In this document: positions 1 to 31,930 of the stretch, piece after piece
Layout of the letters: each line of letters opens with the position of its first letter
Numbering within the stretch: the stretch's first letter is position 1
Assembly (NCBI GenBank): GCA_015222055.1
Contig: JADFUR010000091.1
Coordinates: 1 to 32,238 of the forward strand
Reading direction: 5' to 3'
Source: Bacteroidota bacterium
GTDB lineage: Bacteria > Bacteroidota > Bacteroidia > Bacteroidales > B39-G9
DNA length: 32,238 nt
Position numbers and translations under genes: made by a program
Notes under the pieces: generated by a model
Database searches by the model: none
What the model was told of the DNA's origin: nothing
Seen by the model: the letters and a program-made list of their open reading frames with translations, nothing else

Positions 1-286
1 GAGATATCAATTTTTTCTTGTTTAGATTAACTAAAATTTATGCTTGAAATTTTGTCACTCCACAACTTTTGTACTTGACCCCTATTTCTTTAATTGTTGG
101 ATTTTTTGCGTTTGAAAACTGCAAAATTTCTTTAAGGTCGGAGGGGGAGGATTAAAGTTTGTGTTTGTTGTTTTTTTTATTTTTTTTGAAAAAGTAAAAT
201 TGAGAGTGAGAGGTTTGTGTTATTAGGGCTTATTTAAAAAAAAGTGTTGCTAAACATTTATGCAATTATTTATAGTTGTATCTTTT
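1..286. other. Left-end non-coding stretch
   Basis: I see no convincing gene here. The stretch is AT-rich with long T runs (around 170-190), and it holds one copy of a 28-bp repeat at 244-271 that recurs at 2158-2185. Its beginning could be the tail of a gene outside the window, but no reading frame shows recognisable protein. Confidence 0.5.
244..271 (+). repeat. 28-bp direct repeat, copy 1
   Basis: The sequence begins GTGTTGCTAAACATTTATG and continues to an ATTATTT end. It matches 2158-2185 with a single C/T difference. The two copies lie in the same orientation and enclose the broken gene at 287-1193 and the CPBP protease gene. It could be the boundary of a transferred block or a dispersed intergenic repeat. 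It does not fit the consensus of an integron attC site. Confidence 0.7.
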
Positions 287-1193
287 TTATTCATATAATT
301 CTACTTCAATTTGGATTAAATAATAAGGATTAAAATCTGAATTTTTTATCCAACCTTGTTCTTGCGAATAATGGTCCCAACTTTGAATGTCGAGAGAGCT
401 CTTTTTTGTCAAAGTAAATCCGACACTTAATGAATTTAATCGTTGTTTTACTATATCATGTTTAATGTAAGCGTATTCTTTATAATATTTTGCTGATAGT
501 GCTTGAACAGCAACTAAGATGCCATTCTCTGGAAAGTCAAAGTTGAAATTTGATAAATCAATTTCAACCCAATGATTTCTTTTAGGTTCTAATGAAGCAA
601 TTATTGTTTCTTTAGTTATTTCATTTACAAAAGGATATCCACCTTCATATAGTCTTAACCTAAATGGTCTAAATTTCCAATTATTCTCCCAAAAGTCATG
701 CATATATATTCTCACGCTTGATATTTTACCTTTTATACCCTTATTGGGGATATACAATGCCTTTTGATAATTAAATCCGACCTGTGCAGATTGTATTGTA
801 AAGATATTTCTATTACCTAATTTTACTGTTTTTACATTCTTAGGTTTTATAACTACTTCTTTTATTTTATAAATCTCCGGTTTTAAAATAAACTCCTCAT
901 TTTTTTTTAAGTATATACAAGGTGCTATTTTTAATTTATAACCGATACAAGAAAAAATTATTGAGTCTGATTTTGAAAAATTAGGGTATTGGATCTCAAC
1001 CATTCCAGTTTTATCTGTCATAAATAAATAAATAAACTCCCAATTTAGTTTTTACTTGAAGGTGAACAAATTCAATTCCTTAGTTTTGTTCGTTAAGTAC
1101 ACTGCCTTTCCAAAGGAACAAATTATTATTCTGAGCAATAGAATTAAATAAAACACATAGAAATAATAATAGTATAAAACCAAATTTTTTCAT
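287..1193 (-). pseudogene. Broken exported protein with carboxypeptidase-regulatory-like domain
   Basis: The open part (1021 down to 287, 244 codons) starts inside a domain. It opens with the end of a CarboxypepD_reg-like fold (DKTGMVEIQYPNF, then SIIFSCIGYK, then a lysine-rich EVVIKP end), as seen in Bacteroidota surface proteins. The missing N-terminus is upstream in another frame. An ATG at 1193 gives a signal peptide (MKKFGFILLLFLCVLFNSIAQ) and then LFLWKGSVLNEQN. That reading meets TAA at 1082-1080, resumes as GIEFVHLQVKTKLGVYLF, and leaves frame at a run of TTTA units (about 1036-1022). Removing one four-base unit restores the frame into the downstream part. The gene therefore carries a nonsense codon and a slippage-type frameshift. 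The C-terminal 180 residues are not recognised; they look like a beta-rich domain. It may be a true pseudogene, a phase-variable locus or assembly error. Confidence 0.75.
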
Positions 1194-6328: not shown

Positions 6329-7054
6329 CTAAATTTGATTAATACATTTACTTGCTTCAAGCAGTTTATTCCTATCGCCAACATCAAACCATAAAGACTT
6401 ATCGTGATTAAATGCCATAATTTTATTAGTGGCTGCAAGTTTAAGATAAACATCAACTATTGAAAATTTACCTTTCTCATTTATTTGTTTAAATATTTCA
6501 GGATTAATTACATGAATACCGCTAAAAGCAAACGGTGTAAGTTTAAAATTTGTTTCTTTTGCTATTTTAATTTCGTTAGTTTTAGTGTTTTTCCAAGCAC
6601 AAAGTGACTTGTCTTCATCAAATAAAAAGTAACGCGATGAGTTTCTGTTTCTAACAGCCAGAGTGGCAATAGCATCAGACTTAATATGTTTGTTATACAT
6701 TTCTGATAAATTAATATCTGAAATTACATCAACATTATGAACCAAAAAAGCTTTGTTGTCGTTAAAAAACCAGCTAGCTTTTTTTAGTCCGCCGCCAGTG
6801 TCAAGAATAGCACCACTTTCGTCAGAAATAGTAATATTAGTATTGAAATTATTGTTTTTTTTCAAAAAATCAATAATCATATCTGAAAAATGATGCACAT
6901 TGATAATTATATCATTAAAGCCAAAAAATTTCAATCTGTTTATAACGATTTCGAGCAGTGTTGTGCCATTAATTTCAACCAGAGCTTTTGGTTTGTTATT
7001 TGTTAAAGGTTGAAGTCGTGTGCCAAAACCTGCGGCAAAAATCATCGCTTTCAT
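6329..7054 (-). CDS. Sugar-1-phosphate nucleotidyltransferase (MurU/RmlA type)
   Basis: This is a 241-residue NTP_transferase protein that would join a sugar 1-phosphate to a nucleotide. The N-terminal loop MIFAAGFGTRLQPLT followed by NKPKALVEI (about 4-27) binds the nucleotide and magnesium. HNVDVISD (about 110-117) supplies the second acidic site, and DVGDRNKL near the C-terminus is the usual closing motif. Length and motifs resemble MurU (MurNAc-1-phosphate uridylyltransferase) and HddC-like enzymes. The upstream neighbour on the same strand has an AmgK-like kinase domain, and AmgK and MurU form a known cell-wall sugar salvage pair, so that role is a reasonable inference. The gap to that gene is 154 bp and contains a paired palindrome, so cotranscription is not certain. 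Confidence 0.88.
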   Translation of the reverse strand: MKAMIFAAGFGTRLQPLTNNKPKALVEINGTTLLEIVINRLKFFGFNDIIINVHHFSDMIIDFLKKNNNFNTNITISDESGAILDTGGGLKKASWFFNDNKAFLVHNVDVISDINLSEMYNKHIKSDAIATLAVRNRNSSRYFLFDEDKSLCAWKNTKTNEIKIAKETNFKLTPFAFSGIHVINPEIFKQINEKGKFSIVDVYLKLAATNKIMAFNHDKSLWFDVGDRNKLLEASKCINQI

Positions 7055-7100
7055 TATTTTTTAGTTATTTCTAAATTTAAATTTCAAACACCCTAACTGA

Positions 7101-7193
7101 CTATAATTAAGTGAAACCTGGCAGGTTTGTTTTATAACTATCACAGGGATTTCTCATATTCTTGTCAATTAATTATAGAAACCTGCCAGGTTT
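7101..7193. repeat. Paired AAACCTG palindromes forming a larger inverted repeat
   Basis: AAACCTGGCAGGTTT (7114-7128) and AAACCTGCCAGGTTT (7179-7193) are each near-perfect palindromes and are exact reverse complements of each other. CTATAATTAA (7101-7110) is also repeated in reverse as TTAATTATAG (7169-7178). The element can fold as two small hairpins or one long one. It lies between the kinase-RapZ gene and the nucleotidyltransferase gene. It resembles the AAACCTGNCAGGTTT intergenic palindromes that I recall from other Bacteroidota. Confidence 0.75.
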
Positions 7194-7208
7194 ATTTAAT
7201 TCGTAACT

Positions 7209-8654
7209 TTAAACTCCCAACCCCCAACTATCTATAACCGTATGATGAAGAACAACATTTACATTATATTTATTCTCAATATGTTTTGCAAGATTTTCAG
7301 CACAAAAAACCGAACGATGTTGCCCACCTGTACAGCCAAAATTAATCATCAGATTTAAAAAATTTCTTTCTATATATTTGTCAACCGACGAATCGACAAT
7401 AGAATAAACGTCATCTAAGAAATTGAATATTTTTTTATCTTTTTTAAAGAAATCAATTACTTGTTTGTCTTTTCCTGTTAGTTGTTTATATTCATCATAT
7501 CTACCGGGATTAGAATTTGCACGACAGTCAAAAACAAAGCCACCGCCGTTTCCTGAAATATCAATAGGAATGCCATTTTTGTATGAAAAACTTGTAATTG
7601 TAACTGTAAGTTTGTCTGACTTTTTAATATCTTGTTTAAAGGTAAGCTCTTTTGAATTTACTATTTGATTAAGTACATTATTCAAGGCAGGTAATTGAAC
7701 AGGTATATTAATTTTTTTCAACACATGTTTAAGGTTTTCAATAGCAAATGGAATACTTTGAATGAAATATGATTTTTTTTCGTAAAAACCTCTGTAACCA
7801 TAAGCTCCTAGTACTTGAATAATTCTAATTAGAACATACGCATTATAAAATTTAACAAATTCTTTTTCGTTAATATTTATTATGGTTTTTGTTTTGCAAA
7901 TATAATAATTAAGCAACTCGTCTCTAATATTTTGAGGTAAATCGGCTTTAGCCTGATATAGCAAGGAAGCTAAATCGTATTGTAACGCACCTTTTCTACC
8001 TCCCTGATAATCAATAAAATAAGCGGAATTATTATAGAGCATTATATTTCGAGATTGAAAATCGCGATACATAAAGTAATTGCAGTCTGTTGTAAGCAAA
8101 TAGTCAGCAAGATTATTAAAATCGTCTTCAAGTTCCTGCTCATCAAAATTGATTTTTGCTAATTTCAAGAAATAATATTTAAAATAGTTCAAATCCCAAA
8201 TAATTGATTGCTTGTCGAATGATTCCCGAGGATAACAAACTTTGTAATTAATGTTTTTGGAAGCAGTAATCTGAAATTTTATTAGTTGGTCTATAACATC
8301 TTTGTAAGTAATTAAAATTTGATTTTCTGTTGTTCCTTTTTCGTGAATAAAATTAAAGAGAGTGTAATCGCCAAGATCCTGAATTAAATAAATGTTGTTA
8401 GATAAATCTGCATCGTAAATTTGAGGAACATTTAATTTGTTGTTTAAAAAGCTCTTAGAGAAATCAATAAATGCAATATTTTCTTTTTTATTAATATTAA
8501 AAACACCAATAGCAGTTTTATTTTCACTAGTTATTCTATAATATATTCGGTTTGAGCCCGATTGTGGTAATTTGTATGAACTGATTGATTTTTCACCTGC
8601 CCATTTTGTAAATAATGAGATTAAACCAGATAGGTGTCTATTAGTGCTTATCAT
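7209..8654 (-). CDS. Sugar kinase-like phosphotransferase fused to RapZ C-terminal domain
   Basis: The protein has 481 residues. Residues about 15-330 are an APH/AmgK-like kinase: a GSNRIYYRI nucleotide loop (33-41), catalytic loop YRDFQSRN (196-203, Asp198 and Asn203), and metal-binding FIDYQGG (213-219, Asp215). The usual histidine before the catalytic Asp is a Tyr-Arg pair. Residues about 346-481 match the C-terminal domain of RapZ: GGFVFDCRANSNPGR, YDEYKQLTGKD, and the loop GCTGGQHRSV (440-449). In E. coli this domain senses glucosamine 6-phosphate; RapZ's own N-terminal P-loop kinase domain is absent here. AmgK phosphorylates MurNAc or GlcNAc at C1, feeding MurU, whose likely counterpart lies downstream. 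I infer an amino-sugar kinase under metabolite control, or a sensor. The start at 8654 is preceded by TAAATTTG (8666-8673, minus strand), a possible -7 element. Confidence 0.88.
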   Translation of the reverse strand: MISTNRHLSGLISLFTKWAGEKSISSYKLPQSGSNRIYYRITSENKTAIGVFNINKKENIAFIDFSKSFLNNKLNVPQIYDADLSNNIYLIQDLGDYTLFNFIHEKGTTENQILITYKDVIDQLIKFQITASKNINYKVCYPRESFDKQSIIWDLNYFKYYFLKLAKINFDEQELEDDFNNLADYLLTTDCNYFMYRDFQSRNIMLYNNSAYFIDYQGGRKGALQYDLASLLYQAKADLPQNIRDELLNYYICKTKTIININEKEFVKFYNAYVLIRIIQVLGAYGYRGFYEKKSYFIQSIPFAIENLKHVLKKINIPVQLPALNNVLNQIVNSKELTFKQDIKKSDKLTVTITSFSYKNGIPIDISGNGGGFVFDCRANSNPGRYDEYKQLTGKDKQVIDFFKKDKKIFNFLDDVYSIVDSSVDKYIERNFLNLMINFGCTGGQHRSVFCAENLAKHIENKYNVNVVLHHTVIDSWGLGV

Positions 8655-8761: not shown

Positions 8762-11700
8762 ATGAAGAAGTTATTTTTATTATTTTTATTTATTACAATA
8801 TTTTTTGTTTCGTATGTAAATGCACAGAGGCAAAATTTGCAATTTGATCAAATTACTAATAAAAGCGGTAGATCGTTAGGCTTTATTACCGGTATAGTTC
8901 AAGATAGTCAGGGCTTTATGTGGTTTTCAACACGTAGTGGATTATTTCGCTACGATGGCTACGATTATAAATTATTTAAAAAAAACCCAAAAGATTCTAC
9001 TTCATTACCTCACAATGATATTGCAAATATTTATTATGATAAATCTGGCATTTTATGGTTACTTCATTACGACCAATATTTTCCTTTTAAGGATGAAAAA
9101 ATAAATTTTGAGTATGATACAATCACAAAACAGCATTTCGATTTACAAGCAAAAATTATTGAAGATAATCATAATAACCTTTGGATTGGTCCCAGCCCAA
9201 AAGGATTACTGAAATATAATAAAACAAGCAAACAGTCGGAATATTTTATAAAATCTTTAGCTCAATATTCACCACAATCATTGTCTTATATTGATTCTTT
9301 TATTGTTTCAAAAACCGCTTCATGCAAGCTAATTGAGATGGGAAATAATGTAGACACAACTGATACTTTTGAATTAAAAGAAGATAAAGATATATTAGTT
9401 GTTTCGGCAGGCGAAGCAGATAATAGCACTTTGTACGATTACGGTTTTATAAGCCAAAACAAAGATACTCTTTGGCAAATGAGCTATAAAAAACTTAAAT
9501 ATGCAGGTGGTTCAACAAAGAATAAAATTCAATTTGATTTAATAAAATTGAAAAAAGGTAAATATAAATTAAACTATAAATCAGATAATTCAAATTCATC
9601 AGAGAAATGGGATGGAGCAGCTCCAGATAAAATTAATTTTTATGGGATACAATTATTTTGTTTGTCGTCAAGTCAAAAGGAATATTTAAAACAAAATGTT
9701 ATTAAAGATTATTACCCCAAAAATTATATTTCTTCAAATTCAATAAAAGATTTTTTAATTGATAACACAGGCAGTTTTTGCTTTCTTTCTGATAAAGGAA
9801 TTAGCAAATATGTAGCTGGAAAAAATACTTTTGTTAATTATAATATAGATTATTGTGAGTTATTCAACTGTGACTTTGATAGTCCCTATTTAGTGTTTTT
9901 TCAAGATAAAGATAATGATTTCTGGATTGGTACGAATAACGGATTAATTAAGTATAATCAGGAAAAAAATATTTTTCGGGTATTTAAAAATACTAAAACA
10001 AAATCTGTTTTGACAAGCAACTCAATTTACACTATTTATCAAGACAATGATGGTGATATTTGGGTTGGAACGGATAAAGGATTAAATATTTATGATAAGA
10101 AGAAAGATGTATTTTATAAATATACAGCAGATAATGATAACAGATTGTATGACAATAAAATAATTAAGTTTTATGATGACATTTCAAGTAACTTATGGGT
10201 AGCTACTTTTGAAGGACTTAATAGATTAAAAAAATCACGTTTTAAACATTATAATCTTGATATTGAGAGATATGCTAAGTACCCTGTTTGTATTGATAAG
10301 AAAAAAACAATTTGGTATCGTGGGAATGATAATAATCTTTTGAGTTATAATCTAAAATCAAAAATAATAAGGAAGTTTCCAATTAGTAAGAATTATTTTA
10401 ATTATGACAATATTTTTAATGTTAGAGATTATTTTTTTAATGATATTTTTGAGGACAGCCAATTTAATTTATGGATTTCACTTGATAACAGGTTAATTAA
10501 TTTTAACAGGATATCTAAAAGAGTAACCGATAGCGTGAAAATTAATGCTGTAATAGTGAACGAAGACAGCATTAAAAATAAGATTTGTACAATAGAAGAA
10601 GATTTATATAACAACCTATGGCTGTTTTCGTTAAATGGAATATATCATTATAATAGAATAAAGCATAAATTGACTGATTTTGTTAGTTTTAATCTTAAAT
10701 ATGAAGATATTTTTGAAGTAGATAAAAAGTTTATCAAGTTTGTTCTTTTAACTAAGAAGGGAGACTTTTTAATTAGAACAACTAATGGAATTTATAAATT
10801 TAATCCCAAGCAAAAAAAGATAAAACTGCTTCTTAAGTTCGACGAAGAGATAAAATCAACATCCTTAACTGAAGGGAATATTTATCAAGCTTACAACGGA
10901 AATATTTGGATTGCTGCTTTGCCAAATTTATATGAGTTTGACAAGAATTTAAAACTTCATACATACAAGGTTAATGATTCTCCTGATTTGGGATTTTGTA
11001 ATATTTATCAAGATAAAGACAGCTTAATTTGGATATACACTAACAATGGACTTTTTAAATTTATTAAAAAAAATCAGGAATTTATTCATTATTCAATCGA
11101 TGATGGCTTAGTTGATAATAGCATAAACGGAATGATTGATGACGGCCGTAATAATTTGTGGATTACAAGTTTAAAAGGCTTAACCAAATTTGAGAAAAGC
11201 GATGAAAAATGTGTTAATTTTTTTCGTGCTTCTGATTTTATGTCTTATTATTTTTTAGGCAATCCCGCTAGATTTAAATCGCCAAAAGGGGAAGTTATTT
11301 TATTTACAAACAAAGGTTTTTTAAGCTTTTTCCCAGATAGCATCAATTATAAGAAACCAAATATTGTTGTCGATAATTTTACTTTATTTGGGAAAGAATA
11401 TAAGTTTGATAGTTTAATATATCAAAAGAAAAATATCAAATTAAAATTTAATCAGAATTTTCTGGCCTTTGAATTTTCTGCTTTAGATTATACAGATCCG
11501 TCAAAAAACAAATATTCGTATTTTCTTGAGGGATTAGATGTTAAGTGGACACACTGTGATGCAAACAATCGCAAAGCAACATATACAGGTTTGCAACCGG
11601 GAGATTATGTGTTTAGACTAAAAGGTTCAAATAGCGATAATGTTTGGAATGATGAAGTAACAAAAATATGCGTTATTATTACCCCACCATGGTGGAGAAC

Positions 11701-12622
11701 AACAGTAGCTTATATTCTTTATTTTCTCATAGCATTATTCGCATTATATATGTTTATTCATATTAGAGAAAAGAAATTGATTAAAGAGAAAATGATTCTT
11801 GAGCAAAAAGTTGTGGAACGTACCGCTGAAGTTGTAAAACAAAGAGACCAAATTTCTGAACAAAAAAAAAGTATAACAGATAGTATTCAATATGCAAGTA
11901 GAATTCAAAGGGCCTTATTGCCCTCTAAAGAATATAGAGACGAAATATTACCCGAGCATTTTATTTTATTCCGACCACGCGATATTGTAAGTGGCGATTA
12001 TTATTGGATGAAGCAGAAAAACGGCAAAACAATTGTTGTTGCTGCAGACTGCACCGGACATGGTGTGCCCGGAGCTTTTATGAGTATGCTAGGTGTTGCT
12101 TTCTTAAACGAAATTGCTAACAGAGATGATGTTAATGATGCAAATGAAATATTGAACAGTTTGCGTAACCATGTAATTAAAGCTTTGCACCAAACAGGCA
12201 AAGAAGGTGAATCAAAAGACGGAATGGATATTGCACTGTGTGTTATTGACGCTGATAGAAAAAAAATGCAATTTGCTGGTGCATACAACCCTTTATATCT
12301 TATCAGAAATAATGAATTAATACAGGTTAAAGCCGATCGTATGCCAATTGGATTTTATTTTAAAGAAGCAAACGATTTTAAAAACAATGAAGTTGAGTTA
12401 GAGAAAGATGATAAATTATATATTTTTTCTGATGGATTTGCCGATCAGTTTGGAGGAGAAACAGGTAGGAAATTTATGTCTAAGAAATTTAAACAATTGC
12501 TCACAGAGATTAATAACAAGCCAATGAGCGAACAACATGATATTTTAGATTCGACAATTGACAATTGGAGAGGTGATATTGAACAAATAGATGATATAAT
12601 AATTATTGGTTTAAAAATATAA
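8762..12622 (+). CDS. Propeller-type membrane sensor with SpoIIE phosphatase output
   Basis: The protein has 1286 residues. A signal peptide (1-21, ending NAQ) is followed by an extracytoplasmic two-component-regulator propeller with repeats such as NSIYTIYQDNDGDIWVGT and DKGLNIYDKK, up to about residue 860. A Y_Y_Y domain follows (about 895-970, ending LQPGDYVFRLKGSN), then one transmembrane segment (about 980-1002), a coiled coil (about 1003-1050) with SITDSIQYASRIQRALLP, and a SpoIIE/PP2C-type Ser/Thr phosphatase domain to the end. Phosphatase motifs are SGDYYW, DCTGHGVPGAFMSMLG (near 1095), FAGAYNPLYLI, and FSDGFADQFGG. Residues about 178-315 do not look like propeller blades and may be an inserted ligand-binding domain (with GEADNS, DYGFI, a GG turn, and SDNSNSSEKWDGAAPDK). 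It probably couples an external signal to dephosphorylation of an anti-sigma antagonist or similar partner. No such partner gene is adjacent. Confidence 0.92.
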   Translation: MKKLFLLFLFITIFFVSYVNAQRQNLQFDQITNKSGRSLGFITGIVQDSQGFMWFSTRSGLFRYDGYDYKLFKKNPKDSTSLPHNDIANIYYDKSGILWLLHYDQYFPFKDEKINFEYDTITKQHFDLQAKIIEDNHNNLWIGPSPKGLLKYNKTSKQSEYFIKSLAQYSPQSLSYIDSFIVSKTASCKLIEMGNNVDTTDTFELKEDKDILVVSAGEADNSTLYDYGFISQNKDTLWQMSYKKLKYAGGSTKNKIQFDLIKLKKGKYKLNYKSDNSNSSEKWDGAAPDKINFYGIQLFCLSSSQKEYLKQNVIKDYYPKNYISSNSIKDFLIDNTGSFCFLSDKGISKYVAGKNTFVNYNIDYCELFNCDFDSPYLVFFQDKDNDFWIGTNNGLIKYNQEKNIFRVFKNTKTKSVLTSNSIYTIYQDNDGDIWVGTDKGLNIYDKKKDVFYKYTADNDNRLYDNKIIKFYDDISSNLWVATFEGLNRLKKSRFKHYNLDIERYAKYPVCIDKKKTIWYRGNDNNLLSYNLKSKIIRKFPISKNYFNYDNIFNVRDYFFNDIFEDSQFNLWISLDNRLINFNRISKRVTDSVKINAVIVNEDSIKNKICTIEEDLYNNLWLFSLNGIYHYNRIKHKLTDFVSFNLKYEDIFEVDKKFIKFVLLTKKGDFLIRTTNGIYKFNPKQKKIKLLLKFDEEIKSTSLTEGNIYQAYNGNIWIAALPNLYEFDKNLKLHTYKVNDSPDLGFCNIYQDKDSLIWIYTNNGLFKFIKKNQEFIHYSIDDGLVDNSINGMIDDGRNNLWITSLKGLTKFEKSDEKCVNFFRASDFMSYYFLGNPARFKSPKGEVILFTNKGFLSFFPDSINYKKPNIVVDNFTLFGKEYKFDSLIYQKKNIKLKFNQNFLAFEFSALDYTDPSKNKYSYFLEGLDVKWTHCDANNRKATYTGLQPGDYVFRLKGSNSDNVWNDEVTKICVIITPPWWRTTVAYILYFLIALFALYMFIHIREKKLIKEKMILEQKVVERTAEVVKQRDQISEQKKSITDSIQYASRIQRALLPSKEYRDEILPEHFILFRPRDIVSGDYYWMKQKNGKTIVVAADCTGHGVPGAFMSMLGVAFLNEIANRDDVNDANEILNSLRNHVIKALHQTGKEGESKDGMDIALCVIDADRKKMQFAGAYNPLYLIRNNELIQVKADRMPIGFYFKEANDFKNNEVELEKDDKLYIFSDGFADQFGGETGRKFMSKKFKQLLTEINNKPMSEQHDILDSTIDNWRGDIEQIDDIIIIGLKI

Positions 12623-25815: not shown

Positions 25816-27180
<1,365 letters not shown>

Positions 27181-27233
27181 TTAGATTTAAAGTTATTATC
27201 TGTACTAAAATAATATTTTTTTTTTAATTATCA

Positions 27234-27265
27234 ATCAAAAACATGTTTAATAATATGTTTTTGAT
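27234..27265. promoter_or_regulatory. Inverted repeat upstream of gdhA
   Basis: ATCAAAAACAT (27234-27244) and ATGTTTTTGAT (27255-27265) are perfect 11-bp arms around a 10-base loop. It sits 66-97 bp before the gdhA start and has no gene ending beside it, so it is more likely a regulator-binding site or leader hairpin than a terminator. Confidence 0.55.
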
Positions 27266-27475
27266 TTTCTCAGTGTTAACTATCTTACTTACAGCGTGAA
27301 ATTTGAGTTTTTAACGGCTGGAAAAAAAACGGTAATTTTTTGGAAATGTAAAATTTTTATTTTTAAATATCGAAAATAATATTAATTTTATTGAGACTAT
27401 CAAAATAATATTGATGATAATAATTTTAACATTATGCCTAAATTGTTGAATGTTATCTGTTATATATAATAAATC

Positions 27476-27505
27476 TAACAAAGTAAAATATAATTTAACA
27501 AAGTA
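27476..27505 (+). promoter_or_regulatory. Two TAACAAAGTA direct repeats
   Basis: TAACAAAGTA occurs at 27476-27485 and again at 27496-27505, exactly 20 bp apart, about two helical turns. They end 50 bp before the ATG of the PPDK-like gene. Such spacing suits a dimeric regulator, but the AT-rich context makes chance possible. Confidence 0.4.
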
Positions 27506-27555
27506 CATTTTGTATATTTACTGTTTTTTGATTGTGGTTTAAAAAATTCATTTTT

Positions 27556-30500
27556 ATGGAGATCAATAATAATATTGATTATAAAAAATTGTTTGTTGAA
27601 AGAAATGAACGGCTAAAGGAATTAGCATGTATTAATAAAACGAATAAAATTATTTCACAAGGTAAACCAATAGAAGAGACGCTCCAGCAAATATGTTTAA
27701 TTTTACCAAAAGCATGGCAATATCCTGATTTTACTGTAGTGAAAATTGATTATGACGGAAAGAAATTTTTCAGTAAGAATTTTAAGAAAACAAAATGGCT
27801 TCAAAGTCAAAAATTTGAAACCGTAGATAATATTGAGGGAGAAATAAAAGTTTATTACACCAAAGATTTTGAAAAAAGTTATGAAGGCCCGTTTTTAAAA
27901 GAAGAGAGAGACCTGATAAATAATTTGGCAATAATTATTTTAAATTATATTAATTCTCTGCATGCAAAACTGCTTGTTGAAGAAGCAAGAAGGCACGGTA
28001 AGAAAGAAAAGCAGGAAAAAGAAGATATAAAAGCGAATATAAGCAGCAGAAAATTGCTTCAAATGTTTCTTAACAGATATAATGCAAACAGAGATATTTT
28101 TCACGATTTGATGTCGTTTAAAGTAAAGGAAATTCTTTTAGTAGCTACTTTGTACGATGCATATACTTTAGAAAAAGAAGGAAGGTTTACCGAAAGTATT
28201 CTTGGTGAATATTATCAGTTGAATCTAACTTCTGTACCACGAATTACAGGAGTTACAACTTTTGAAGAAGCAAAAAAACAGTTAAAAAGCAAGCATTTCG
28301 ACCTTATAATAATTATGGTAGGTAACGATAAAAATAAACCTGCTGTTGTAAGTAAGAAACTTAAAAATATTTTTCCATACATCCCTATATATCTGTTGTT
28401 GAATAATAATATGGAAATAGATTACTTTAGAGATAAATTAATCTCAATTGACAGAATTTTTGTGTGGAACGGCGATTCAACCGTGTTTTTTGCAATGGTA
28501 AAACTGCTCGAAGACAAAGTAAATATTGAAAATGACACTAAAATTGGATATGTAAAAGTTATTCTTTTAGTTGAAGATTCAGAGAAATATTACTCTCGTT
28601 ATTTGCCTATTCTCTATTCGAGCGTGATGGAGCAAACGCAAAGACTGATTGAAGATGTTAGCACCGACGATTTATATAAAGTGTTAAGACTGAGGGCAAG
28701 ACCTAAAATTTTATTAGCAACTGATTATGAAGATGCTATTGAAATTTTTAATAATTATTCAGACAATATGCTTTGTTTGATATCTGATGTGAAATTTAAA
28801 AAGAATGGTAAATTAGACGAAAAAGCCGGCTTCTCTCTGGTAAATTATGCAAGAAGTATTTACCGTGATTTACCAATAATAATACAATCCTCAGATCCGG
28901 AAAATGCAGTAGCAGCAAGTGAATTGAAATCAATATTTATTAACAAAAATTCCGATTATTTAATTCAGAATATTAAGAGTTTTATTGAACGCTATCTTGG
29001 TTTTGGAAATTTTATTTACAAAGATGCCAATGGAGCTAAAATCGCAGTAGCAAGAAATCTTAAAGAGTTTGAAGATTTAATTGGCAAAATACCTGCCGAA
29101 TCGCTGCTTTATCACGGAAAAAGAAACCATTTCTCATTATGGTTAATGGCTCGTGGTGAGATAAAAATTGCCAAGATGATTAATCCGGTCAGTATTACTG
29201 ATTTTAAGACTATTGATGAATTTAGGCATTTTATGAATTATGTTATTAAAACTTATCGTAACGAAGAGAATATTGGCAAAGTAATAAATTTTGAAAAAAG
29301 AGAAATTCTTGAAGAAACAAATGTTGTTAGTTTGGGCGATGGTGCTCTTGGTGGAAAGGGGAGAGGACTTGCTTTTGTTAACACTTTAATTTATAATTTT
29401 AATTTTTCTGAGCTTATTCCAAAAATAAATATTAGAACTCCGGCAACCTTGATTATTGGTACTCATGAATTCGATTTTTTTATGGAGATTAATCATCTTA
29501 AAGAGAAAGTTTATAAAGAAAATGATTATGATAAGATTAAAAATTTATTTTTAGATGGGGAATTTTCTTACGATTTAACAAAAAAATTAAAGGTGCTTGT
29601 CGAAACCATGAAAGACCCTATTGCTGTGCGTTCGTCAAGCTTGTTTGAAGATTCTACCATGCAACCTTTTTCAGGAATTTATTCAACTTTTATGTTGCCA
29701 AATAATCATACCGACATAAAAGTGCGTTATAAGCAGATTTGCGATGCCATTAAATTGGTTTATGCTTCAATGTTTTCTAGCTCAGCACGTTTATATTTCG
29801 AAGCTGTTAATTATAAGATTGAAGAAGAAAAAATGGCTGTTGTAATACAAGAAGTTGTCGGCAATAAATACGATAGTTGTTATTATCCGCATATAAGCGG
29901 AACAGCTCAGTCGCATAATTTTTATCCTGTTTCGCATATGAAACCCGAAGATGGATTTGCTGTATCTGCCGTCGGGCTTGGCAAATATGTTGTTGAAGGG
30001 GATAAAACATACAGATATTCACCAAAATTTCCGAAACTGGATATTATTTCTCCTAAAGATTTATTAAAAAGTACTCAAGTAGATTTGTATGCTGTTAATA
30101 TGGCTAATCAGGATATTAATTTGCTAAAAGATGGCGAAGAGGCTGGTCTTAAAAAAATTGACCTTATAGAAGCAGAAAAACACGGAACATTAAATCATTG
30201 TGTGTCTGTGTATAATATTGATAACGATACTACTGAGCCGGGTTTAGATACTTACGGTCCGCGAATTGTTAATTTTGCCGATATTCTGAAATACGATTAT
30301 ATCCCATTGGCAGATACAATTGATGTGCTTCTTGATGTGGTGAAAGAAGCTCTAGGATGCGATTGTGAGATTGAATACGCTGTTGATTTAAACAAGACGG
30401 AGAATAATCTGCCATCGTTTTATTTGCTGCAAATAAAGCCTCTTATTGGCAACGAAGGAGATTACGCCATTAATCTTGATAAGATAAAAAAAGAAAAAGT

Positions 30501-31002
30501 TATTCTCTTTGCAGAGAAGAGCATGGGAAACGGAAAACTTGACGATATTCAGGATGTGATTTTTGTCGATAACCATAAGTTTGACAAGATGAAAACACAG
30601 GAAATGGCTGATGAGATTGATCTTTTGAACAAAAAGATGGTTAAAGAAAAGAAGAAATATATTTTGATAGGACCCGGCAGATGGGGAAGTCGCGATAGGT
30701 TTATTGGTATTCCGGTTATTTGGACCAACATCTCGAATGCTAAAGTTATTGTTGAACTTAGCATTAAAGATTTCCCTTTAGATGCTTCGCTCGGCTCTCA
30801 TTTTTTTCATAATGTTACCTCAATGAATGTTGGCTATTTCTCAATATCTCACTCATCGGCAACCGAATTTATTGATTGGTCAGTGCTAAACAAACAAAAA
30901 GTTATAGAGACAACAAAATTTTTTAAACATATACGTTTCGAAAAACCAATTTCTGTTGTTATGGATGGCAAGAAACGAATTTCTATGATTAAGTTTGAAT
31001 AG
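27556..31002 (+). CDS. PPDK/PEP-synthase-like ATP-grasp protein with receiver domains
   Basis: The protein has 1148 residues counted from the ATG at 27556; the frame opens earlier at a TTG, which I reject. The N-terminal 140 residues resemble a sensor domain found in front of histidine kinases (ERNERLKELACINK, LPKAWQYPDFTVVKID, YEGPFLKEERDLI). Next is a degenerate receiver-like fold (about 188-325) lacking the phospho-Asp. A second receiver-like fold (about 331-490) has its full set: Glu340-Asp341, Asp411 in LISDVKF, Ser445 and Lys464. From about 595 it has a PEP/pyruvate-binding ATP-grasp domain (DGALGGKGRGLAFVN, PIAVRSSSLFEDS, QPFSGIYSTF, VIQEVVG). The phospho-histidine swivel and TIM barrel of true PPDK are absent. 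The C-terminal region (about 1010-1148) has IGPGRWGSRDRFIGIPVIW, SLGSHFFHNVTSMN. It may phosphorylate an unknown target under receiver control. It stands alone. Confidence 0.85.
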   Translation: MEINNNIDYKKLFVERNERLKELACINKTNKIISQGKPIEETLQQICLILPKAWQYPDFTVVKIDYDGKKFFSKNFKKTKWLQSQKFETVDNIEGEIKVYYTKDFEKSYEGPFLKEERDLINNLAIIILNYINSLHAKLLVEEARRHGKKEKQEKEDIKANISSRKLLQMFLNRYNANRDIFHDLMSFKVKEILLVATLYDAYTLEKEGRFTESILGEYYQLNLTSVPRITGVTTFEEAKKQLKSKHFDLIIIMVGNDKNKPAVVSKKLKNIFPYIPIYLLLNNNMEIDYFRDKLISIDRIFVWNGDSTVFFAMVKLLEDKVNIENDTKIGYVKVILLVEDSEKYYSRYLPILYSSVMEQTQRLIEDVSTDDLYKVLRLRARPKILLATDYEDAIEIFNNYSDNMLCLISDVKFKKNGKLDEKAGFSLVNYARSIYRDLPIIIQSSDPENAVAASELKSIFINKNSDYLIQNIKSFIERYLGFGNFIYKDANGAKIAVARNLKEFEDLIGKIPAESLLYHGKRNHFSLWLMARGEIKIAKMINPVSITDFKTIDEFRHFMNYVIKTYRNEENIGKVINFEKREILEETNVVSLGDGALGGKGRGLAFVNTLIYNFNFSELIPKINIRTPATLIIGTHEFDFFMEINHLKEKVYKENDYDKIKNLFLDGEFSYDLTKKLKVLVETMKDPIAVRSSSLFEDSTMQPFSGIYSTFMLPNNHTDIKVRYKQICDAIKLVYASMFSSSARLYFEAVNYKIEEEKMAVVIQEVVGNKYDSCYYPHISGTAQSHNFYPVSHMKPEDGFAVSAVGLGKYVVEGDKTYRYSPKFPKLDIISPKDLLKSTQVDLYAVNMANQDINLLKDGEEAGLKKIDLIEAEKHGTLNHCVSVYNIDNDTTEPGLDTYGPRIVNFADILKYDYIPLADTIDVLLDVVKEALGCDCEIEYAVDLNKTENNLPSFYLLQIKPLIGNEGDYAINLDKIKKEKVILFAEKSMGNGKLDDIQDVIFVDNHKFDKMKTQEMADEIDLLNKKMVKEKKKYILIGPGRWGSRDRFIGIPVIWTNISNAKVIVELSIKDFPLDASLGSHFFHNVTSMNVGYFSISHSSATEFIDWSVLNKQKVIETTKFFKHIRFEKPISVVMDGKKRISMIKFE

Positions 31003-31339: not shown

Positions 31340-31930
31340 TTACCATATATATTTCAATTTTTTATCATCAATAATATTATAAGATTGTTGTATAAAATTA
31401 TCTTTATCGTAATTTATTATCTCATAAGCCAAATTTTTATTAACGAATTTACCATTTCTTAAATTGGCATAAGCGTGGAACGATGAAAATTCCCAATCTT
31501 CAAGTCTTTCTACCAAATTAGCAGCATGTGGGTTTTGATGAATATAGTAAAAACAATTTATCGCATAATTTTCATTCCTTTTTGTATCATTCAAACAAAT
31601 AGCTTTTGTATTGTGTGCAAATAATTTCCCCTTTCTATGTTGCTGATTATTTATGGCTTGCGTGTATGAGCTTAACAATGTTCCAATATTTTTTGAAAGA
31701 ACCATATAATTGTTCATATGTGGCTTATTTATAGTGGCAATACTCAAATTGTTTGCTCTTACAAGAAAATGAAAATGGTTTGGCATTAAACACCATGCTA
31801 ATATATCACAAACAGGGAAAATAAGATTATTTATTTTTTCCAAGAAGAATAAATAATTGTCTCTCGAATAGAAAACAGTTTCGTTACTTCTATTGTAAAT
31901 ATGATATAATTTTCCACTTTCAAAATTCAT
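31340..31930 (-). CDS. REP-associated tyrosine transposase (RAYT)
   Basis: The 196-residue protein is a single-domain Y1 HUH enzyme of the TnpA_REP/RAYT group. It starts with GKLYHIYNRSN, has the metal-binding HUH motif in MPNHFHFLV (His52 and His54), and the nucleophile Tyr129 in CFYYIHQNPHAANLV. It ends with the characteristic EDWEFSSFHAYANL. RAYTs cut single-stranded DNA at palindromic REP sequences and are thought to have spread them. The gene is flanked on both sides by copies of a strong palindrome (31029, 31267, 32136) and CGCTTAGCGG words, the expected layout. The frame is intact with both active-site motifs, so it could be functional. It has no terminal inverted repeats of a classical insertion sequence. 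Confidence 0.93.
   Translation of the reverse strand: MNFESGKLYHIYNRSNETVFYSRDNYLFFLEKINNLIFPVCDILAWCLMPNHFHFLVRANNLSIATINKPHMNNYMVLSKNIGTLLSSYTQAINNQQHRKGKLFAHNTKAICLNDTKRNENYAINCFYYIHQNPHAANLVERLEDWEFSSFHAYANLRNGKFVNKNLAYEIINYDKDNFIQQSYNIIDDKKLKYIW

Follow-up and report, generated by a model that had tools for sequence, protein, structure and literature searches.

The window analysed here is a stretch of 32,238 nucleotides from a Bacteroidota bacterium (contig JADFUR010000091.1 of assembly GCA_015222055.1), and its gene at 27556-31002 on the + strand encodes a protein of 1148 residues in which a PPDK-type ATP-grasp domain is joined to a sensor and two receivers. An earlier note, made from the sequence alone, had described a signal-controlled phosphotransferase or ligase acting on an unknown acceptor. 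The gene was found to adjoin a gene for glutamate dehydrogenase (GDH), and the GDH linkage of this protein family is new. Tentatively, and at somewhat less than an even chance, we read the protein as a PPDK-derived, self-phosphorylating regulator of the glutamate/2-oxoglutarate node, in which a relay from His1082 to Asp411 would control the partner GDH or KorAB; what the analysis shows is how the domains are ordered, which residues are conserved, a predicted phospho-His-like fold of moderate score and the gene linkage, whereas the phosphotransfer, the direction it takes and any influence on GDH are inferred.

Domain architecture of the protein

The open reading frame is real and intact, with an ATG at 27556 and, as a possible alternative start, an in-frame TTG at 27532. 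A sensor, a pseudo-receiver, a complete receiver, a linker, a PPDK-type ATP-grasp domain and a C-terminal domain follow one another from the N- to the C-terminus. The whole protein was modelled with AlphaFold2 using 49 sequences (mean pLDDT 84, pTM 0.68), and conservation was counted in the columns of 182 aligned family sequences. The best structure match of the full model was the phosphoenolpyruvate (PEP) synthase 2ols (Z 26.3, 357 residues, 4.5 A; model 589..1148 against 10..466), and PPDK 1dik was aligned over model 576..1148 against 6..510, these ranges marking only where each alignment starts and ends. The top Foldseek match was rifampin phosphotransferase (5hv1, 5hv3). Fragments of DUF5752, TrkA_N and OKR_DC_1_N were matched by Pfam below the cut-offs.

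The N-terminal sensor domain (residues 1-140; 27556..27975, +), already suspected in the earlier note, was predicted as an alpha/beta domain with pLDDT blocks mostly of about 90, and model residues 15..147 matched DosP 255..386 (Z 13.2; one row among the matches listed), which we take to be the GAF-like part of that protein. In some relatives the domain stands in tandem, with up to four matched stretches per protein (e.g. L089, L116, L120 and L122). Both following domains are predicted receiver folds, and the two-receiver protein 3luf spans model residues 190..483 (Z 13.9, 222 residues, rmsd 8.5). The first of them, REC1 (residues 190-331; 28123..28548, +), is degenerate by its sequence, as had been proposed: in the columns assigned to the acceptor and the Lys by our reading of the strands, Met or Thr (177/182) in place of an acceptor Asp occupies the former, and Trp the latter (182/182). 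REC2 (residues 332-483; 28549..29004, +) was matched by single-receiver structures at about 332-487 (Z 12.9-16.5 among the matches listed), and the acidic pair, acceptor Asp, Ser/Thr and Lys of a receiver, all of which the earlier note had named (Glu340-Asp341, Asp411, Ser445 and Lys464), are present and conserved across the family (E340 182/182, D341 175/182, D411 182/182, Ser or Thr at 445 182/182, K464 181/182). The codon of Asp411, the candidate phospho-acceptor, lies at 28786..28788 (+).

The linker (residues 484-580; 29005..29295, +) resembles DUF5752, whose match is below the Pfam cut-off and reaches 23.4 bits against 23 once neighbouring pieces are summed; kept columns are H520 (178/182), N524 (150/182), W529 (180/182) and R533 (180/182). 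The ATP-grasp domain (residues 589-964; 29320..30447, +) was detected as Pfam PPDK_N at 597-964 (E 6.5e-36), in agreement with the PEP/pyruvate-binding domain reported before, and the ATP domain of rifampin phosphotransferase, 5hv6, matches model 574..964 (Z 23.4). K601, R692, E938, E940 and Q959 are each invariant (182/182), and position 961 is Lys in 103 and Arg in 79 of the sequences. These residues are taken by us as the equivalents of PPDK K22, R92, E323, Q335 and R337, an equivalence that a profile alignment with PPDK assists for K601, E940 and Q959.

The C-terminal domain (residues 968-1148; 30457..30999, +) contains the GPGRWGSRDRF region, which is real and highly conserved, and an isolated model of the last 186 residues had a pLDDT of 89. 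When this model was compared by VIA with the chains ranked highest by Foldseek (997 aligned), the six best matches were all phospho-His domains of PPDK or rifampin phosphotransferase: 2fm4, which is the phosphoryl carrier domain of PPDK in isolation (Z 6.9, 113 residues, 3.5 A), 5jvn (6.6), 1vbg, 5lu4 and the rifampin phosphotransferase 5fbu (all 6.3), and 1vbh (6.2). Pyruvate kinase and DRTGG entries (5.9-6.1), two further PPDKs (5.7), an LD-carboxypeptidase (5.4) and chaperonins (at most 5.2) scored lower. The elements run in the order two strands, helix, strand, short helix, strand, helix, strand and terminal hairpin, which in our view parallels the phospho-His domain of PPDK, and helix 119-127 of the model starts at S1081-H1082, a position that would match that of the PPDK helix beginning at the TSHAA His. 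His1082 (codon 30799..30801, +; motif GSHFF), the candidate phosphorylated residue, is kept in all 181 alignment rows with a residue there.

On the strength of these models we consider it rather probable that the C-terminal domain is a phospho-His domain, and the His swivel, apparently diverged past sequence recognition, is probably present. The earlier note had held that no phospho-His domain exists; with 2fm4 as best match, that statement is probably wrong, although Foldseek and profile comparison did not confirm the phospho-His fold. Structure prediction, for which the note had called, gave the receiver folds at 190..483 and, in the C-terminal model, suggested the hidden phospho-His domain that it had named as contrary to its view. 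Given an ATP site and a carrier His, the chemistry is likely to be transfer of the beta-phosphate of ATP to the His, with no PEP barrel present to take the phosphoryl group off again.

The absence of the PEP-binding barrel was borne out: PEP-utilizers and PEP barrel families gave no Pfam match up to E 10 over the whole protein, and the chain stops after the C-terminal domain. The NCBIfam PEP synthase model scored far under its cut-off, as did the full-length family model RIF_Ptrans_rph (19.8 bits against 999), and the same genome encodes a distinct PPDK (908 aa, carrying TSHAA). The earlier judgement that this is no glycolytic enzyme agrees with the missing barrel and the separate PPDK, and the protein does look signal-controlled. 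The note's caution about database labels was also justified, the Parabacteroides distasonis relative being labelled simply 'PEP/pyruvate-binding domain-containing protein'.

Linkage to glutamate dehydrogenase and KorAB

The earlier note had overlooked both the adjoining GDH gene and the conservation of its neighbourhood. An NADP-type GDH (25816..27168, -; NCBIfam PRK09414, 758 bits against a cut-off of 536) is divergently transcribed from the family gene across an intergenic region at 27169..27531 (by the open reading frame coordinates), and we propose it as the partner. The assembly (98.6% complete) contains two family genes and two GDH matches, and each GDH adjoins one family gene; the second family member has 994 aa, is 39% identical and lacks the N-terminal sensor. 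P. distasonis shows the same divergent arrangement of gdhA and the family gene.

In a sample of the phylum, a GDH match (PF00208) was located within 5 kb of 44 of the 51 receiver-bearing family places (33/40 genomes), at a median gap of 194 bp; by our rough estimate (about 3 GDH genes x 14 kb / 3.7 Mb), chance would give about 1% per place. Among the 80 best-scoring named loci (L061-L140), many of which have short flanks, GDH was found in 42, KorA/B in 17 and either in 54, KorA or KorB lying within 400 bp of a family gene in those 17. Among the 34 loci flanked on each side by 4 kb or more, the counts were 17 with GDH, 6 with KorA/B only and 11 with neither. KorA/B were identified from one representative each (OAFO_sf above the cut-off; PorB_KorB slightly below, 234 against 262 bits), and their substrate is presumably 2-oxoglutarate. 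GltA/NfnB-like, NfnA-like and NuoE/F-like genes also recur as neighbours and, with KorA/B, point to ferredoxin and NAD(P)H balance.

Several loci carry more than one pair. Alternating arrays of GDH and family genes were found at L144, L145, L150-L152, L154 and L158. Seven loci (L078, L094, L096, L102, L106, L111 and L117) are arranged as GDH-A, long form, short form, GDH-B, L096 having an extra open reading frame between the long and short forms. Over 71 adjacent pairs, the distances among family proteins and among GDHs correlated best for the real partners (r 0.309). Random swaps inside the 12 two-pair loci gave a mean r of 0.247, with 0/500 exceeding 0.309; r fell to 0.126 when all 12 were swapped and reached at most 0.084 in 500 unrestricted permutations. 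This shows that family gene and GDH pairs travel and diverge as units, which need not entail physical contact.

At E ≤ 1e-20, the family was detected in 55 of the 60 genomes of a list of relatives and in 50 of the 296 genomes of the phylum sample (own genome included in both), with Marinifilum, Labilibaculum, Carboxylicivirga, Mariniphaga, Mangrovibacterium, Parabacteroides, Phocaeicola and Prevotella among the named carriers. A plasmid collection yielded 18 records, three from Bacteroidales covering at least 80% of the query, among them a Prevotella record of 1.77 Mb, and 15 from Deinococcus; the 12 Deinococcus rows among the matches listed were short, weak matches within the ATP-grasp domain. 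No viral relative was confirmed among 44 pattern matches.

Shorter and domain-extended relatives adjoin a third GDH type of 428 aa, either as a 580-aa form consisting of the ATP-grasp and C-terminal domains only, as a form of about 1060 aa, or as both. Two of the about 1060-aa forms were scanned (L172 and L178) and comprise PPDK_N and a C-terminal nucleotidyltransferase domain, NTP_transf_2; a nucleotidyltransferase inside the GDH cluster could imply covalent modification of GDH. Relatives of about 1060 aa were seen at L172 (2808-7723) and also at L173-L177, L179 and L180, with the 428-aa GDH adjoining in most, and in L172-L177 a 580-aa PPDK_N protein stands at, or a few bases from, the start of the larger protein. 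His1082 is kept in all 15 examined relatives of the two kinds. Taken together, the 580-aa and about 1060-aa forms identify the ATP-grasp and C-terminal domains as the common core of the GDH-linked forms.

Proposed relay and its alternatives

In the mechanism that we favour, the ATP-grasp domain would charge His1082 of the swivel with the beta-phosphate of ATP, yielding AMP, and the swivel, having no PEP barrel to serve, would hand the phosphoryl group to Asp411 of REC2. The sensor and pseudo-receiver may gate this transfer, and the phosphorylation state would set the binding to, or modulation of, the adjoining GDH; in some genomes the target would be a KorAB-type 2-oxoacid:ferredoxin oxidoreductase rather than GDH. 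The unknown acceptor of the earlier note may in this way be narrowed to leading candidates, namely the internal Asp411 and the partner enzymes GDH and KorAB. More doubtful than the relay itself is its extension to a one-chain device in which a PPDK-type ATP-grasp/phospho-His engine replaces the HisKA/HATPase kinase, feeds its own receiver and is dedicated, gene by gene, to one GDH or 2-oxoacid:ferredoxin oxidoreductase.

The nearest tested precedent, by analogy, is VadK (Rv1127c) of mycobacteria, described as a PPDK-derived His kinase of ATP-grasp and His domains without a PEP domain. It is reported to phosphorylate itself on His422, to act on the methylcitrate cycle and to co-purify with enzymes whose genes lie next to its own (PMC12636432, PMC13400623). 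As far as these accounts go, the two proteins are alike in pairing a PPDK ATP-grasp domain with a His domain, a probable one in the family protein, in the absence of a PEP barrel and in being encoded beside metabolic enzymes, and differ in that VadK has these two domains only, whereas the family protein adds a sensor and two receivers; its probable His domain, unlike that of VadK, is diverged and recognised by predicted fold alone. The family protein fits the VadK-type architecture if its C-terminal domain is the swivel, and its gene adjoins GDH as the VadK gene adjoins its enzymes, by which analogy it may serve GDH.

Hybrid histidine kinases also hold sensor, His and receiver in one chain, but neither HisKA nor HATPase_c gave a Pfam match in the family protein, whose kinase part would be of PPDK type. 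GarA or OdhI with PknG in Actinobacteria, in the descriptions at hand, offers a likeness in function: there, a dedicated binding protein controls enzymes of glutamate and 2-oxoglutarate metabolism in a manner linked to phosphorylation. GDH is among the targets of GarA/OdhI, an FHA-domain protein, and PknG is a Ser/Thr kinase; no FHA domain was found by Pfam in the family protein. The one-chain device, if true, would be this group's counterpart of GarA/OdhI control of the glutamate node.

Fusions of REC and PPDK have already been catalogued under the words 'Bacteroides-like combination' (PMC5847659), and the output domains given for receivers lacking Asp include PPDK (PMC4395418). To judge from architecture, these are probably the same family or a close one; the relevant passages of both papers list the architecture only, with neither a function nor a link to GDH. 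In a table of nitrate-fitness genes of Desulfovibrio, a gene for a PPDK-type ATP-grasp/mobile-domain protein stands in a row with those of a histidine kinase and an NtrX-type regulator (PMC4001038). A search of open-licence papers found none on a GDH-linked receiver/PPDK protein; a vesicle-screen paper with 'phosphoenolpyruvate synthase' and GDH mutants, which concern separate genes, was set aside (PMC12096838).

Several observations weigh against the proposed relay. The phospho-His assignment depends on predicted models, and the VIA scores of 6-7 are under 8, a range for which the tool warns that a match may mean just a common arrangement. Foldseek returned 0/404 matches of the C-terminal model at E ≤ 0.001, and no useful result came from hhalign of a 49-row C-terminal alignment against seven PPDK-type His domains of near genomes. 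A 199-row profile of residues 589-1148 (106 rows after filtering) matched PPDK in the ATP-grasp domain (P 2e-4, probability 45), with no confident alignment through the C-terminal domain. PF00391 was not matched by Pfam, and the TSHAA motif is not present in the protein, GSHFF or GTHFF standing where it is usual. On the genomic side, 7 of the 51 receiver-bearing places lie away from any listed GDH match, and neither GDH nor KorAB was found in 26 of the 80 loci or in the 11 of 34 with longer flanks; adjacency and co-divergence can also come from simple co-inheritance. That His1082 reaches Asp411 is, like all of the phosphotransfer and regulation, purely inferred.

Other readings distribute the same evidence differently. 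An unlikely one is a kinase modifying GDH covalently, with His1082 phosphorylating a GDH residue directly and the receiver serving as an on/off input from an ordinary histidine kinase; the linkage data speak for it too and a complete receiver suits outside kinases, but the acceptor site on GDH is only hypothetical, and VadK is proposed to act via binding (PMC13400623). We regard as no likelier a receiver-controlled small-molecule phosphotransferase resembling rifampin phosphotransferase, with a substrate in glutamate or 2-oxoacid metabolism and the linker at 484-580 as substrate site. The lead of rifampin phosphotransferase in the Foldseek search, the lack of a known PEP barrel in that enzyme and the strong conservation of H520, N524, W529 and R533 are in keeping with such an enzyme; the 580-aa relatives, some beside GDH, have neither linker nor receivers, however, which better suits a regulator than an enzyme with a substrate domain. 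Rifampin phosphotransferase shares with the family protein the ATP-grasp fold, closest by Foldseek, and a phospho-His domain, probable in the latter, and differs in having no receivers and in its rifampin-binding domain (PMC4844700).

Should the C-terminal domain not be a phospho-His domain, the protein could be an ATP-binding sensor of energy charge acting on GDH by binding alone. The nil sequence similarity to PEP-utilizers, the nil Foldseek match and the modest Z scores would be explained, but of the six positions examined in the ATP-grasp domain five never vary, the sixth is Lys or Arg and His1082 is never replaced, none of which a mere sensor need keep; we hold this to be quite improbable. 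That the protein is a true PEP synthase or PPDK is suggested by its PPDK_N domain and by database labels and is scarcely credible, given that no PEP barrel was found, that TSHAA is not present and that the genome has its separate PPDK.

GDH is one of the chief gateways for ammonia and glutamate in Bacteroidales, those of the gut among them, and we know of no dedicated post-translational controller of GDH in this order. With a protein so often paired with GDH in distant families of the phylum, and equipped with a complete ATP site of PPDK type, a candidate His carrier and a receiver, such control can be put directly to the test; the protein could also explain a set of proteins labelled merely PEP/pyruvate-binding. 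It and VadK would jointly suggest that kinases derived from PPDK recur as a class of metabolic regulators.

Other features of the genome and window

Another PPDK-type protein was seen in the same genome at L191 (G000:C102:50191-50439), with an open frame of 1380 aa that ends just after a TSHAA phospho-His domain, no PEP barrel lying behind that domain; the gene downstream resembles, by eye, glyceraldehyde-3-phosphate dehydrogenase. Within the window, a small protein at 31340-31930 (-) has no Pfam match at E ≤ 1e-5 and carries an NHFHFLVR motif, which we take as that of REP-associated transposases. A 1286-aa protein at 8762-12622 (+) combines two-component propeller repeats and Y_Y_Y with a phosphatase domain of the SpoIIE kind. 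The stretch 6329-8654 (-) encodes a nucleotidyltransferase together with a protein whose C-terminal domain is that of RapZ; a nucleotidyltransferase/RapZ pair likewise lies near the family gene in P. distasonis (L192 13035-15199).

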